From Trichodelitschia bisporula (taxonomy: Eukaryota; Ascomycota; Dothideomycetes; Phaeotrichales; Phaeotrichaceae): a stretch of 64,000 nt of DNA. The position numbers and the translations under genes were made by a program. Below, in pieces: positions 20,215-30,602 of the stretch; within the stretch, counting starts at the first letter, position 1, and every line of letters begins with the position of its first letter. Location: contig ML996711.1 of NCBI GenBank assembly GCA_010356995.1, positions 1-64,000 of the forward strand. The letters are read 5' to 3'. The notes under the pieces were generated by a model. It was not told the DNA's origin, ran no database searches, and was given only the letters and a program-made list of their open reading frames with translations.

Positions 20215-22100
20215 GCTTTGGCGAGCTTGGATGGAGGGTGAGAGGACGATGGGGACGACGTAGGGGACGAGGAGACGCTGGGGAGGATATGATACCGCGG
20301 GCTCCATAACTTTCTCCGTGCTGGGGTTCTCGTGAGCGCTCACTTCGACTTTTACTTGGCTGCGATGCTGCATTTTCAGCGCTTTTTTTGAAAGGCGTGC
20401 CTTCGGGTTCTGACGAAGTACGGAGCGTTGGCGCTTCAGTCTTTTTTTTTTTTCCTTGCGAGCGAGACGGGCGGTGGCCATCTCGTTTTCTGATGTGCGG
20501 TTATCTGTCAAGTGTCGATTAGGTTGGGCCTGGGGGACGCGGTACATCCGCTGTTGTTCGGAGAGACGAAATTTGGGATATTCGGCCAAAGTATGGGTTG
20601 AGTGGGAATCGCGGGCTGCTACCGGGCAGCGTGTCTCTCGAGCGTTTTGTTTTGGATGACCAGTCGCGGGCAAGCACGGTGGCTACATCTTCATGGCGGT
20701 CGAGTTCAGCACCTTTGGTGGGCACATCGTTTCCCTTTTTCAGGCCGCGCCTTTTGGGACCAGTGCTGCGAACTTGTTGGAGGGTAGTTTAGTTCGAGGG
20801 AGCGAGCCGGGCTACTACGTAGCTAGTGTACTTTCGAAGGGTACATCCGAATTACTTTTGCCGTCCAGTTATCCCGCTGCGAACAAAACTGCGAACTACT
20901 CGCGAACTATTGAAGTCTTTCGCATAAGTTGCGTTACGCAACGTCCCCGACGCTGGCGTAGGATTCGCAGCAAAGGCGGAAGGGCTGGCGGGTAGTTGAC
21001 CTGGTACTGGCTCCGTCTGGCGCACACTGCGCAGCGGTTGGCTGGTATATCGGGAGCGCAATTCGTCGGGCGGCTGTGCGGTTAGCGGGGGCGTTCAGCC
21101 AGTCTCGTGGGATCGCGGGGATTCGAATATACTCCCTTTGGAACTAGGTCCAGTGTTGAAACTTGAGGTGTGCCTGTGTGACTATATGTTTGAGATGAAG
21201 AACATTCGCTCCTTCGGCGCGCGCGCCTGACTGACAGCGCCTTCACGCGCTTTTTGATAACGGGCCCCCGCGTGTCCCGGCCGTGGGGCGCGTGGTCGTC
21301 GCGTGGGGCGGCACATGATGACAGCCTTGGGCGTTGGGCACGGGTTCGGGCTGCGGGGTGGGTCGGGTTGCAATTTTGGCTTGTTGGGCGGGAGGAGAGG
21401 GATGGATTTCAAGGACGGATGGACGTGGTTGTATTTTGTGCTTTGATAAAGCGGGTAGTTGCGGGCACCGTAGGGGCGGGGTGCGGGTGTGGGGTGCTGT
21501 GGGGTGGGGCGTCCAGGATGGGATTTTAAGGGTGGATTTGGAGAGGCTTTTGAGTGTGGGGTGCGCTGTGATGGGCTTGGAGCTGCTAGATTGAATATCA
21601 TGTTCACGGTTGAGGCAGTTTGGCTTCAAGTTTCATTGTGGTACATCGCCTTCATGTATACATCTTCAAACATGTCTTCACGCTTTTATCCTGACCCATC
21701 CCATCGTGATATTGTCCCCGTACATGTCCATTTCCACTGTCCCCATAGCAGTCCCCTTTCCAACATCCCCACCAGCCCGAGGTCGCCCTATCCTAGCCCG
21801 TAGTTATCCTTCGTCTGCGCATATCCTTCCTTTTTTGACGGTATCACCCCCCCCCGCAATCCCTCACAGACCCTCCCATCGCACCCCGTAAGCATCCTGA
21901 TGCCCACTTCAATAGCTTCCTCCATAGAACCCACTCATCAAACTCCCACGTCGTCCTATCGTGCCATCCATTGTGCCATCTCATCGTGCCGTCCCGTCAT
22001 GCACATCCAGTCGTGTCGTCGTCAGAGAGAGTGTTTGCCCCTGCCCTGCACAGGTGCTCGAGGCATACCACCTGTACTAGACAGGAGCAAAGTAGTCTCC
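20215..22100. other. Gene-poor stretch
   Basis: No supported gene. Frames are short, overlap on both strands and carry no motif. The plus strand becomes C-rich from about 21650, with degenerate CATCCCATCG-like words that lead into the repeat array. Confidence 0.5.
21951..22025 (+). repeat. Short degenerate tandem repeat, ATCGTGCCATC-like
   Basis: Four to five imperfect copies of an 11-12 bp word (TATCGTGCCATCC, ATTGTGCCATCT, CATCGTGCCGTCCC, GTCATGCACATCC) run head to tail. They lie at the left border of the larger hairpin array but are a different sequence family. Confidence 0.5.
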
Positions 22101-22149
22101 CACAGGGAGCATGTCCCCCACTTGGGAGAACGTGCAGCCCCACCGAGGA

Positions 22150-23369
22150 GGTACACTCGCCAGCCAGATATATTTCAATGTCCAGCCAACTTGCTGGGGC
22201 CCCGGGCGGTTGTGGAGTGTAGAAGTGTACGCCCGGAGCCATAGCTGTTCCCCCCAGGGAGGGAGTGGCACCTCCCCAAGGTACAGGCACACCCTGGCAG
22301 ACACCTTTCGCTGTCCGGCCGACTGTTGGGGCTCCTGGCAGCGATAGAAGTGCGCGCCTGAAAGCCCCAGCAGTCCCCCATCAGGGAGGATGTGCCGCCC
22401 CAATAAGGGATGGGCACTCCCCGACCAGACACATTTCGGTGCCTGATCGACTGCGCTGGACTCCGGGAAGCAGCGGCGTTGGACTGCATGCCCGAGAGTC
22501 CCAGCAGTTCCTTATTGCGGAGGGCGTGCCAGCCGGACAAGTGGTAGTGTCCGGCCGGCTGTGCTGGGGCTACGGGCAACAGTGGCGTGGGAACTGCATG
22601 CCCGGAGCCCCAGCGGTCGCCATTCCGGGAGGACGTGCTAGCCGGATATATAGCGGTGTTTGGCGGGCAAAGAATTGATGGAAACTCGCCAGCGGAGCAC
22701 ATTTCGGTGTCCGGTCGACCGTGGTGGGGTCCCGGGCAACATTGGCGTTAGAACTGCATGCCCGAGACCCCCAGCGGCCCCCCTTCGGGACGGACCTGCC
22801 AGCCGGACAAATGGTGGCGTCCGGCTGGCAGTTCTATGGCTCCGGACTACAGTAGCATTTGAACTGCGTGCCCGGAAGCCCCAGCCGTCCTCCATCAGGG
22901 AGGCCCGTGCCATCTCAGGCAGAGAGAGGGAGGAAGCTCGCCAGTCAGACACATTTCGGTATCCGGCCGACGGTGGTGGGGTCCCGAGCAACAGTGGCGT
23001 TTGAACTGCATGCCCGGGACCCCGAGTGGCCCTCCCTGCAGGAAGGACCCACCAGCCGGACCGATAGCGGTGTCCGGCTGGCAGTGCCAGGGCCCGGGCA
23101 GCAGTGGCGTTTGCACTGCGTTACCGAAAGCCCCAGCCTTCCTTCATCAGGGAGGCCGTGCCACCTCCCGGGAGGGGCACTAGCCAGCCGGACAGACAGG
23201 GCTGTCCGGCCGACTGCGGGGCCAAGACTCCGGACAACATCGCCATATCGACCACGCATGCCCGGAGCCCTGCGTCCCAGCCACCTCCTCTACGGAGGGG
23301 CGATGGACGTCTCCTCCAGGGAGAACCCCACCAGCCGGCTACAAGATGGGGAGTGTAGCCGGCTGGCCG
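22150..23369. repeat. Array of about eleven hairpin-bearing imperfect tandem repeats
   Basis: Every unit carries a core of the form CCAGCCGGAC-loop-GTCCGGCTGG, followed by a GTGGTGGGG(C/T)CCGGGCAACAGTGGCGTT-like arm (I give it in pieces because units differ), then GAACTGCATGCCCGGAGCCCCAG and a CCATCAGGGAGG-like block. Anchored on GAACTGCATGCCC, unit starts fall near 22482, 22593, 22751, 22861, 23003, 23113 and 23251, so spacing alternates between 110 and about 140-158 bp. Perfect 10-bp stems occur at 22799-22828 and 23052-23081 and a perfect 13-bp stem at 23331-23366. A subset of units has the loop ACACATTTCGGTGT instead. The array is GC-rich, not coding in any consistent frame, and ends 170 bp from the stop codon of the large minus-strand gene, so it may lie in that gene's 3' UTR. 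Origin (satellite, structured RNA, palindromic element) is unknown. Confidence 0.8.
23331..23366. repeat. Perfect 13-bp inverted repeat closing the array
   Basis: CCAGCCGGCTACA (23331-23343), a 10-nt loop (AGATGGGGAG), then TGTAGCCGGCTGG (23354-23366) form a perfect stem. It is the longest stem in the array. Compared with the other units, both arms have changed together (GGCTACA with TGTAGCC in place of GGAC with GTCC). It lies about 175 bp beyond the stop codon of the minus-strand gene, where a structured 3' end or terminator could sit. Confidence 0.75.
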
Positions 23370-23540
23370 GAACCAATATACGCGGCACGCCGGAGTTATA
23401 TATAGGATATAACGTCTTCTGTCGTTGGAGCGGGTCGATTGATGATATACCTCTGCCAGGTGACATTCCGGCAGAGAAAGGGTCTTACGTCGACCGGCAA
23501 GGAGATAGTGCCGACCGACCGCCCGTAGTGATTCCAGCGA

Positions 23541-26500
23541 TTAGTTCTGGGGGCCGGACGCCCCAGAACGCTTCGCGGCCTTCAGAAATTCAAAGTCTGC
23601 GTTTTGGAGATTCAGATTCTGCCCCTGTGAAGGAGGAGGTCTCATCGGAGCTGTACCGGGTGAAGCTTGCGCGCCGTAGGCCGCCTGGTAAGGGTCCCTA
23701 CGCGGTCCAGACGTTGGGGCCCTAGGACCACCCTGGATATTGTAATACGGTGAGGGGGTCGGTGCAAGAGAGCGGCAGTACGTCGAGACTTGCGGGGTCG
23801 TGGTCGGATATGCTGGACCTTGGTTCATAGGGGCCTGGGCACCCATCGGAGCATGATGCATCGGGCCTGCAGCCATCGGAGCACGATTCATCGGCCCTGC
23901 GCCCATCTGAGCGTGAGGCATTGGGTGCCCACCCATCGGGTTTCCGCCCATGGGGTTCCCGCCCATCGGGCCTGCACCCATCGAAGCGGAAGACATCGGA
24001 GCTTGCGGAATCGGGCCTCCACCCATCTGAGCATGATGCACCTGGCCTGCAGACATCGGAACCTGAACCATGGGAGACTGAGTAGCAGGAACCTTGAACT
24101 TCGGAGCCTGGTTCTTAGAAGGTTGACGCTTCTTCTTAGGGGGGGAATTTGGCGCAGGATTCGTGTCTTTGGCCTGTAGGTCGCGGAGGCGGGTACCGTA
24201 CCAATCTGCAACTTTCTTTTTCTGTTCCTCAGTGGTGGCGTTAGAGAGAGCCACCCGCATACGTTCCTCTAAGACCGCACGCATATCTTGCGGTGCAAAG
24301 ACAGGCTGTTGCGCCTGCTGTTCCTGGGGAGGAGCAGCGTGCTGCACCTGCTGTCCCTGGACTTGAGCACCACCATACTGCGCCTGCTCGGCCTGGCGAA
24401 TAGCACCAGCTGCGGCTTGACGACGCATATCTTGTTGATTATTCCGAAGCTGAGTGTCGATGAGTGCATTATTGACTCCTCCCTGGGATGGCGCCTTAAG
24501 AGCCGCATCCCTCTCAGCCAGCGCTTCCGACGACCCGGACCACAGGACCTTTAACTGGCACAAAGGATTGTCATCCTGCTTCAAGTCCAAGTAGTGGACC
24601 CCACCCTGCCTAGGACCTGTAAAGCCAAGCAGGTCCCAAGCTTGCTTGTCGAGTATGTCATGATACTTCTCGAATGCGGGCTTCCAAGCTTCACCAGGGT
24701 CGGCCCTCAGCTCAGCCTCCAGCTCGGCCCAGGTTTTCTGCCCTTCGTGATAGCAAAACATGAAGCGCAGCTTGTGTTCGAAATCATCCACCGGCGTGTT
24801 CTCCGGACAGTCGCACGGCCCCTGCGGCTGTTCCTGAGGTTCCGACAACGCCCCACCTTGCGGCTGTCCATATCTAAAGTTTGCAATATCCGTTCGAATA
24901 TTGCACAACTTCTTACGCCCATGCGGCTCTTCCTGAGTCTCCGGCTGCGTGCAATCACTAGGAGCGATCGGGATAAGAGCGAGCGGAGGAGAGAGTGGAG
25001 TGAAAACCCCCCGCTGGAACTGCGCCATCATCTCCTCATTAGGCTTGTGAGCGTGCTCGACCGACGTGGAGGGCTTCTCAGCACCTGTAAGGTCTGTGGG
25101 CTCAGGCAGTTCGCCAATGATGCAGCGATTGGGGCTAGACACCGTGCTAGCCGGAAGGGTCGCTACAAAGTCATCCCGAGCTTGAGCGCTCAAAGGTGGG
25201 TTTTCCGCGGACTGAGGAGCGGCATCGTTTTGGGCACCCACATTTTCGGTGACAGTGCTCCCAGCACTGCTGGGGATGGGAACACCGAAGGGCCCGCTGA
25301 GCAGGTGATAGGCCTCAGACACCTTGCTGGCCGGAAGGCTCTCTACAAAGTGTTCCAGAGCTTGGCCACCCACCCATTGCTTTTCCAAGGGCTGACGTTC
25401 GGCATCGCTCAGTAAATCCAGATTTTCGGTAATAGTGCCGGGAATTGCGCCGAATTGAATAAAAAGCTCCCCCGTCCCGGCTCCAGCCTTGTAGAGGAAG
25501 GCCATAAGCCACCGACGTATCTCCCAATCGTCCGATGCAACATTGCCATCGACGGTGACTCCGGCGTTGCCAGGGAGGTTCTGTGCATCGTTGTTGGCAG
25601 CATTGCCATCGGCGTTGACTTCAGGGTCGTCGGTAAAGGCCTTGAGCCACTGACCCAAGTTGCCCTCAGGGCTTGCGAGCAAGGCGTTGACGCGCTGATC
25701 CGTCTCTGCATCGCTGCTTGCAACATCGCTATCGACGGTGACTCCAGCATTGCCAGAAAGGCTCTGTGCATCGCTGCTGGCAGCATTGCCACGGACGGCG
25801 ACTCCAGCGTTGTCAGGAAGGTTCGGTGCGTTGCTGCTGGCAACATTGTCGTAGACGTCGTCAATGATGAGGTACTCATTAGGACCGAGCGTCAAACCGA
25901 TGCCAGGCACGTTTGGGAGGTCGGAAAGTTTGACACCGCGCTGAGGAAAAAAGTGCACTTCGCCCTCATCAACCTTCGCACGCTTTGGATCCGGCTCGGA
26001 CGGGGAGCTATAGCGACGCTTTGAGCCAGTCGCAGCCTTATCAGGAGCGGTGTTCTGCGGATCATCAGATGAGGAATCCATAGCATGGGAAAGACTCACC
26101 CCAGGTTCAGCCGGAGTCCGAGAGCCCGCAGGCTTGAGTTGAGCAGAAGTGGTTTTCGGTGTAGTCACACTGGAAGCAGAGTTATGGGGAGAGGGGTTCT
26201 CATTCATCGGCTTAGACGCGCACTCGGGCTTCTGCGGAGGCCCTTGAAACTTGGGAAGGCTCAGGCCGAGTCCGGCCGGAGTCGGAGCGCCCGGAGTAGG
26301 CTTCGGCAGAGCAGGTTTGGTAGGGGGGCCTTGAGACTTGGGAAGGCTCAGACCCAGACAAGCCGGGATCGGAGCACCGGGAGTCGGAGCCGGCATAGGC
26401 TTGTGTTGAGCAGAAGTAGCTTTCGATGAAGTTCCACTGGAAGCAGAGTCATGGGGATTGGGGTTGCCCTTCATACGCTTAGACGCAGACTCGGGGAAGC

Positions 26501-29193: not shown

Positions 29194-30602
29194 TCAGAGA
29201 GATCTCGGTTTCTCCATCTTCTCGTCATCATCCAACTCTTCTTCCGTCGTAAATTGGCCGTCCGAGTCAATATCTTCAGGCTCCGGTTGCTGGGAGACGG
29301 ACTTCGCGTTCGCATATTGTAGGCCGCTAGTCCGTCCAAAGAAATCTCCGGTTCGTAATCCACGAACATCGGCGGGGTTCACAGCTTGCTTCAGGTTGCC
29401 TTGGGCTTTCATCTCTTTGATGTATTCGCGAACGGGACACATGGCTGCATCGCGACATGCTTCTTTTATGTCGCTTCCGGACATGCCGGCACTGACCCGG
29501 ACTAGATAGTCCAGATCGAAATTCGCATGGTCAACTTTGGTATCCCGCAGAATGAGCTTGAAGATCCGTCGCCGCTGGTGCGTTGAGGGGAGAGACACTG
29601 GGAACTTCTTTGGCATCCGACGCAGAATGGCCTCGTCGATATCTTGAATGCGGTTGGTAGCTCCCAGTATGCATATTCTTTGGGGAACTCCTGAGGAATT
29701 CGCGGAAGCCAGGCCATCCCAGTGCGTCATGAATCTACTTTGGTTAAAACTACTGGACTAGAACTTTGAAGACGCATACTCAGCCTTAACCATACCGCTA
29801 GCCTCGTGCTCGCCACTTCGCCTTTGGCCCAGCACAGCATCTATTTCGTCGATGAACACGATGGTCGGCTGAAGCTTACGCGCAAGAGAGAAAACGGCGC
29901 TGACAAGCTTGTTCGAATCGCCGTACCACTTCTCCGTCAAAGTGGAGATATGGAGGTTGATAAAGCAAGCGCCGCTTTCATGTGCCAGAGCTTTAGCAAG
30001 CATCGTTTTGCCGCAACCGGGAGGACCGAACAGTAGAACGCCAGATGGGGCAGACAGCAGTGAAGATGAGTGGGCGTAAAGATGGGGCATGGTGAGAGGG
30101 TAGATGACAGATTCCTTCAGTTCTTCGATAATGTCGTCAAGGCCGCCGATATCTAGATTGCACTCAGAATACATTCGGTTATCAAGGAGCGAGCGGCTCT
30201 ACCCTCGAACGTCACCGGAATATCCTCTGGAGCCACGACTTCCATGGCTATTGTCTGCTCATAGGGGGTGAGGTGGAGGTCTTGCAGCCGGGGCCGGTCA
30301 TGGCCGTAGGGATGGTCTTCGTCGCCATCGACACCCTCCTTGCTGGCGAGGATGCCTTCCAGCTTCTTACGGGCGGCGCTGGCCTTCTGCTTCGCCTCCT
30401 CTTTCTGGCCGCCATCGAAGTCTAGCTTGGAAATAATGCTGCGTGCTACCCAGTATGCCGCGACGGACTGTAGTTCCGAACAACGCATCAGCACGCGCCA
30501 CTTAGAAACGGAGACAGCAGGACACGAGGGAAATCTTACGGCAAGGGCGATGGAGAGCACATCCTGTAGCAGGATCCACTTGCGGTTCGTAGTAGTAGTC
30601 AT
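29194..30602 (-). CDS. MSP1: Mitochondrial outer-membrane AAA ATPase Msp1/ATAD1
   Basis: Four exons, read leftward: 30602-30540, 30467-30203, 30152-29780 and 29734-29194, giving 413 residues. The N-terminus has one membrane segment ([19 protein letters not shown]) that anchors it in the mitochondrial outer membrane and peroxisome. The AAA core opens with [21 protein letters not shown]; Walker A is GPPGCGKT (about 150), Walker B FIDEID (about 210) and sensor 1 lies in ILGATNR. Msp1 pulls mislocalised tail-anchored proteins and stalled precursors out of the membrane. Family length is about 400, so the model is complete. The tail after GDFFGRTSG is acidic and disordered. Splicing at GAGG/GTAGAG and ATCTAG/ATATC restores EDIGG. 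It shares a 362-bp upstream region with TIM21, transcribed the other way. Confidence 0.95.

Follow-up and report, generated by a model that had tools for sequence, protein, structure and literature searches.

The question raised by this locus of Trichodelitschia bisporula is whether a row of hairpin-forming repeats has kept its base pairing under constraint and, if so, whether the pairing is kept in an RNA or as a DNA palindrome. The repeats lie in the first 64,000 nucleotides of contig ML996711.1 (assembly GCA_010356995.1), the stretch that was analysed here and that we call the window. A first-pass annotation had described about eleven repeat units within 22150..23369, each with an inverted repeat, and had argued from arms that seemed to change together that pairing itself is kept, either in RNA or as a DNA palindrome.

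Results

Layout of the array and anatomy of its units

Our analysis confirmed a diverged tandem array at 22160-23366, made up of nine full units of 108-147 nt together with one truncated unit and one unit that consists of a single hairpin (Table 1). Start-to-start spacings are 51-147 nt, and a higher-order period of 252 nt is found within the array at 22680-23167. The array of eleven units described earlier is real when the truncated and the one-hairpin units are included, but each full unit contains three or four hairpins instead of a single one: all nine have the site of a CCAGCCGGAC-type hairpin I, a hairpin II and a short hairpin III, and hairpin IV is present in the five longer units. The array lies inside the limits first proposed, whereas folded segments occur also beyond them, at 22022-22103 and 23440-23580. 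The inverted repeats that had been quoted as perfect stems of differing sequence exist, namely CCAGCCGGAC/GTCCGGCTGG at 22799 and 23052, GCCGGACAG/CTGTCCGGC in the 23184 unit and the 13-bp pair at 23331; the stems at 22799 and 23052, however, are identical.

On the minus strand hairpin I has 7-13 predicted pairs outside the truncated unit and 3 within it, where it folds poorly on this strand (-2.5 kcal/mol over 30 nt) and better on the plus strand (-10.3 kcal/mol over 32 nt). For the nine minus-strand copies of hairpin II 14-27 pairs are predicted, and 21 for the model; six of these copies have an apical loop like UUCAAACGCC. At least 20 pairs are predicted in four copies (20, 20, 21 and 27) and 14-18 in the other five. 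In the diverged unit 23184 the folding energy of hairpin II is -41.7 kcal/mol on the minus strand (z -4.5) against -22.3 kcal/mol on the plus strand (z -1.1). The covariance model R2, built from the very nine hairpin II sequences that it scores, matched all nine on the minus strand at E values of at most 1.4e-8 and gave five matches on the plus strand, with E values of at least 0.0026.

Table 1. Coordinates of the array, of selected hairpins and of adjoining features in the window.
Feature	Position	Strand	Details
Array of hairpin modules	22160..23366	-	Repeat layout and minus-strand folding
Unit starts (plus coordinates)	22160, 22293, 22421, 22529, 22638, 22689, 22799, 22941, 23052, 23184, 23331		22638 truncated (51 nt); 23331 hairpin I only
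Example of a full unit	23052..23183	-	I 23052-23081; II 23083-23139; III about 23140-23156; IV about 23158-23180
Hairpin II of unit 22941	22972..23029	-	18 predicted pairs, one bulge, 9-nt loop; z -5.4 minus, -2.8 plus
Hairpin II of diverged unit 23184	23214..23282	-	Extended stem that includes G-U pairs
Terminal hairpin of the array	23331..23366	-	13 perfect pairs; arm GGCTACA replaces GGAC of other units
Hairpin beyond the array, not a unit copy	22022..22103	-	13 + 9 pairs separated by one mismatch; on minus some are G-U
TATATATAA, possible TATA box	23396..23404	-	About 30 nt before the array; within an AT-rich palindrome
Hairpin between stop codon and array	23440..23475	-	z -2.55 minus; plus strand not folded apart
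Hairpin enclosing the stop codon of the upstream ORF	23533..23580	-	z -2.85 minus; plus strand not folded apart
Open frame of 1570 codons	23541..28253	-	Stop codon 23541-23543; 3-base periodicity strong as far as the stop

Coding status, known families and other copies

The array is non-coding. Differences between two 252-nt copies were distributed 12:12:12 by codon phase, those of another pair of copies 14:10:7, and the 3-base periodicity of 0.4-1.3 compares with 6.8-16.5 in eight segments of the large upstream open reading frame; a protein-coding repeat was rejected for want of a clear codon phase and of periodicity. Searching Rfam over the whole window yielded nothing but 5S rRNA at or above the gathering threshold, the nine matches from a permissive search of 21500-24000 were without exception below threshold, and a tRNA search found none. 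A known Rfam RNA family was rejected, as the array stays below every gathering threshold.

DNA and pattern searches of the genome (25,654,952 bases) found no second locus; the DNA search skips simple repeats and common words, and diverged relatives could be missed by these searches. With no further copies found in the genome, a dispersed repeat or transposon family was likewise rejected within the limits of these searches. No fungal nuclear array of this kind was found in a limited literature search, and one could be in print. Tandem, diverged and found at one locus only, the array might be a plain GC-rich minisatellite, the founder unit of which was palindromic by chance and has decayed neutrally since; the neighbouring gene carries minisatellites too. 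Such an origin has to be judged by the fate of the fold, to which the following tests apply.

Folding strength against background

The folding of the array exceeds chance. When the DNA was cut into 130-nt tiles (first tile phase, 30 shuffles per tile), the nine array tiles averaged a folding z of -4.1 (minus strand) and -2.3 (plus strand), compared with -0.04 and -0.08 for the 153 other tiles of 12000-33000, and the minus strand had the lower z in all nine array tiles. When the whole window was tiled again in a second phase, the lowest nine-tile run reached -3.39 (minus), the lowest of 924 outside runs only -1.19, and the minus strand beat the plus strand in six of the nine array tiles (14 shuffles). 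Furthermore, among 2650 nine-tile runs from twenty 10-kb stretches of this genome (200 kb, 14 shuffles) the best value was -1.42. The folding is uneven along the array, since 110-nt minus-strand tiles spanning 22580-22729 and 22860-23009 gave z values of 0.2 to 1.1, and parts of the gap between stop codon and array are likewise not folded above chance. Because the nine units are copies of one another, the array tiles are not independent, and decay and permutation tests were therefore run on the units.

Column-wise covariation

Arms that change together, the reason first given for kept pairing, proved a poor guide. In hairpin I (ten copies) 85% of cells are paired and the covariation score was reached by 71 of 500 shuffles; in hairpin II (nine copies) 80% of cells are paired and 102 of 500 shuffles reached the score, the 23331 hairpin being left out of this column-wise test. 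Two-sided changes are few, affecting 3 of 12 pairs in hairpin I (reached by 169 of 500 shuffles) and 4 of 21 in hairpin II (106 of 500), and the best single measure, cells changed on both sides in hairpin II, was still reached by 36 of 500. Base-pair covariation clearly above shuffles was not found in hairpins I and II, and column-wise covariation failed as proof of pairing, shuffles often reaching the scores. According to the available portion of PMC11234323, variation that has power but lacks covariation counts against a conserved pair. The minisatellite explanation gains from this outcome and from hairpin III, for which neither of the two tests described below (permutation and arm swap) revealed constraint.

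Retention of the fold

Swapping arms between units, which needs no alignment, gave p values on the minus strand of 0.019 for hairpin I (11 copies) and 0.003 for hairpin II (9 copies), with no significant effect for III (p 0.71) or IV (p 0.12); on the plus strand the values were 0.050 (I), 0.069 (II), 0.91 (III) and 0.16 (IV).

For the neutral-decay test, evolution from the unit consensus was simulated along the unit tree with the nine full units and hairpins I-III. The decay tests draw on a single alignment of nine related copies and exclude the truncated unit 22638, hairpin IV and the hairpin at 23331. At matched divergence the observed minus-strand energy was -489 kcal/mol, compared with -407 +/- 23 expected (0 of 200 simulations reach it), and the plus-strand energy -435 kcal/mol, compared with -405 +/- 23 (20 of 200 reach it), while the difference between the strands was reached by 1 of 200. 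Lower divergence gave 2/200 for the minus strand, 66/200 for the plus strand and 1/200 for the difference, and higher divergence 0/200, 9/200 and 0/200, respectively. With the end units dropped, the minus strand stood at 0/200 and the strand difference at 1/200. By unit type, the strand difference was reached by 2 of 200 simulations with the five A'-type units alone and by 45 of 200 with the four A-type units alone.

Unpaired sites, read on the minus strand, show more C/T variation (21) than A/G variation (7), and this excess led us to a permutation that keeps the spectrum exactly: substitutions were moved among sites of the same consensus base and indels were excluded. The observed folding was reached on the minus strand by none of 400 permutations, whether columns or events were moved; on the plus strand by 3 of 400 (columns) and 4 of 400 (events); and the strand difference by none of 400 in both cases. 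Taken by hairpin, the minus-strand counts were 1/400 for I, 0/400 for II and 112/400 for III, those of the strand difference 61/400, 0/400 and 282/400. As the strand difference is rare for hairpin II alone, the strand signal sits mainly in hairpin II.

These tests support the view that the fold of the nine full units is kept on the minus strand better than neutral decay allows, and on this ground the earlier claim that pairing itself is kept holds. Moreover, divergence is lower at the paired consensus sites (0.18; 78 of the 107 sites) than at the unpaired ones (0.28; 29 sites). Stem sites are better conserved than loop sites, and changes that leave G-U pairs are retained. Minus-strand structure beyond neutral decay, as well as the smaller divergence of stems than of loops, goes against a neutrally decaying minisatellite, which we consider improbable.

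Which strand carries the constraint

At many changed stem positions the minus-strand RNA would have G-U while the plus strand reads A-C. Stem changes read on the minus strand gave G-U to A-C ratios by cells of 21:9 in hairpin I and 27:9 in hairpin II, where cells share ancestry, but only 10:8 and 13:8 by column pairs; an earlier alignment of the arms of all four hairpins had given 37:13 by cells. The five plus-strand R2 matches were dropped from this counting. As proof, the count of G-U against A-C is suggestive by cells and fails by columns. The same minus-over-plus bias is found in the hairpin at 22022-22103 (z -4.97 minus, -2.56 plus), which is no homologue of the array units. A DNA palindrome alone does not predict a strand difference, and the constraint on pairing probably acts on a minus-strand RNA; the earlier alternative of RNA or DNA palindrome is narrowed accordingly, the palindrome by itself leaving the strand difference of the decay and permutation tests unpredicted.

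Palindromes might also be maintained by template switching, without any function. According to the part of PMC8794818 available to us, hairpins can arise and be maintained through template switching, which can also look like compensatory change and may itself be strand-biased; in such hairpins, as in the array, arms stay complementary despite sequence change. The consensus unit (-72.7 kcal/mol, minus strand) folds more stably than eight of the nine copies, which would be expected if an ancestral palindrome had decayed. The 23331 hairpin combines 13 perfect base pairs with a new sequence, and plus-strand structure is also kept somewhat better than by permutation (3-4 of 400). However, Watson-Crick correction does not itself predict that minus-strand G-U pairs should be kept over plus-strand ones; the strand difference is rare by chance (1/200, 0/400), and the end hairpin, though non-homologous, is biased to the same strand. 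The retained structure of the array is strand-biased in a manner that the mechanism, as far as the available text of that paper describes it, does not predict of itself, and we regard maintenance by template switching as unlikely.

Surroundings and possible transcripts

The array begins about 175 nt beyond the stop codon of the co-directional 1570-codon open reading frame, for which neither Pfam nor PDB yielded a match. This reading frame holds tandem repeats with periods of 15/30, 33/66 and 60 nt, all multiples of three. Beyond the stop codon in the hairpin at 23533-23580 the frame stays open for 139 codons, which may reflect readthrough or chance. An internal Pol III promoter was rejected: none of the 30 B-box-like matches in the window (chance expectation 31) lies within 22000-23600.

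We propose that the array may well be a structured minus-strand RNA, either a 3' UTR or a non-coding RNA, with a selected fold that serves as a multivalent platform. The minus-strand RNA would carry a row of nine to ten modules, each with three or four hairpins, and a separate 22-pair hairpin would come after the row; the copies would have arisen by tandem duplication, after which selection would have held hairpins I and II foldable in RNA. The array would then lie within a 3' UTR of about 1.5 kb belonging to the co-directional reading frame that ends at 23541 or, alternatively, in a non-coding RNA that starts shortly before the array. Presuming transcription, we lean slightly towards a 3' UTR, joined to the upstream messenger, over a separate RNA.

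Platform or Dicer substrate

A double-stranded-RNA-binding or loop-binding protein might dock repeatedly on the modules and thereby localise, retain or silence the transcript. The competing possibility is a milRNA or hpRNA cluster, in which the II hairpins and the 22-pair end hairpin would be diced to 20-24-nt RNAs that load Argonaute. Against dicing, no more than 14-18 pairs are predicted in five of the nine II hairpins, and hairpin I is shorter than hairpin II, yet constrained; stems of this kind are generally too short for Dicer. In favour of dicing, at least 20 pairs are predicted in the remaining four II hairpins and 22 in the end hairpin, and two Dicer-dimer loci are present in the genome together with three Piwi loci. 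The hairpins of surveyed fungal mi/milRNA loci are generally short, and fewer than 20 nt separate their duplex arms, as far as the accessible text of PMC9757828 goes. In the parts of PMC3547838 at hand, Neurospora milR-1 lacks predicted A and B boxes and depends on TATA-like elements, which the TATA-like element before the array recalls, and the four main Neurospora milR loci have in common a T run just downstream; for the latter we found no TTTT counterpart on the minus strand of 21501-23700, a weak observation, as by our estimate chance alone would supply two to three. Overall, the array resembles the fungal milRNA and hpRNA loci of these partly available sources in some short-looped hairpins of about 20-27 pairs and in the presence of Dicer and Argonaute loci in the genome, and differs from them in its nine tandem copies, its constrained shorter hairpins and the T-run terminator, which was not seen. 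We hold a milRNA or hpRNA cluster to be rather unlikely, and a multivalent binding platform appears somewhat more plausible than a Dicer substrate. Over its matched stretch the third Piwi-domain locus (G000:C18:570652-571683) is interrupted by three in-frame stops, consistent with introns or with a pseudogene.

Discussion

To our knowledge, most described cases of tandem RNA modules under structural constraint belong to a small number of animal lncRNAs. The Xist A-repeat, an example of tandem structured lncRNA repeats, is likewise built of tandem GC-rich folding modules with a proposed repeated binding of protein, whereas the modules described here comprise three or four hairpins over 108-147 nt and directly follow a coding frame; a sequence relation to Xist is not expected. 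GC-rich hairpin modules are also seen in the GC-rich double-hairpin elements of fungal mitochondria. Those are dispersed mitochondrial elements, whereas the present array is single, tandem and located on a contig of 317,611 bases that is taken as nuclear.

The array suggests an undescribed structured RNA or a long messenger tail. More speculatively, and with considerable doubt on our side, it could be a lineage-specific fungal RNA, similar in build to the repeat domains of mammalian or insect scaffold lncRNAs, whose multi-hairpin docking modules set valency through their copy number, and which, as the 3' UTR of a large low-complexity protein or beside its gene, helps to localise or condense that protein. 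This compact fungal case, with about ten diverged copies and RNAi genes present, would permit tests of fold retention among repeats, and also direct tests of valency (copy number) against function. In addition, strand-compared neutral decay from a consensus helps to separate RNA constraint from a DNA palindrome and is usable on other hairpin arrays.

Elsewhere in the window, a 5S rRNA gene lies at 568-686 on the plus strand, near the contig start (Rfam RF00001, 71.4 bits), and an AAA ATPase is encoded at 29194-30198 on the minus strand by two adjacent open reading frames (AAA and AAA_lid_3) that are probably joined by an intron.
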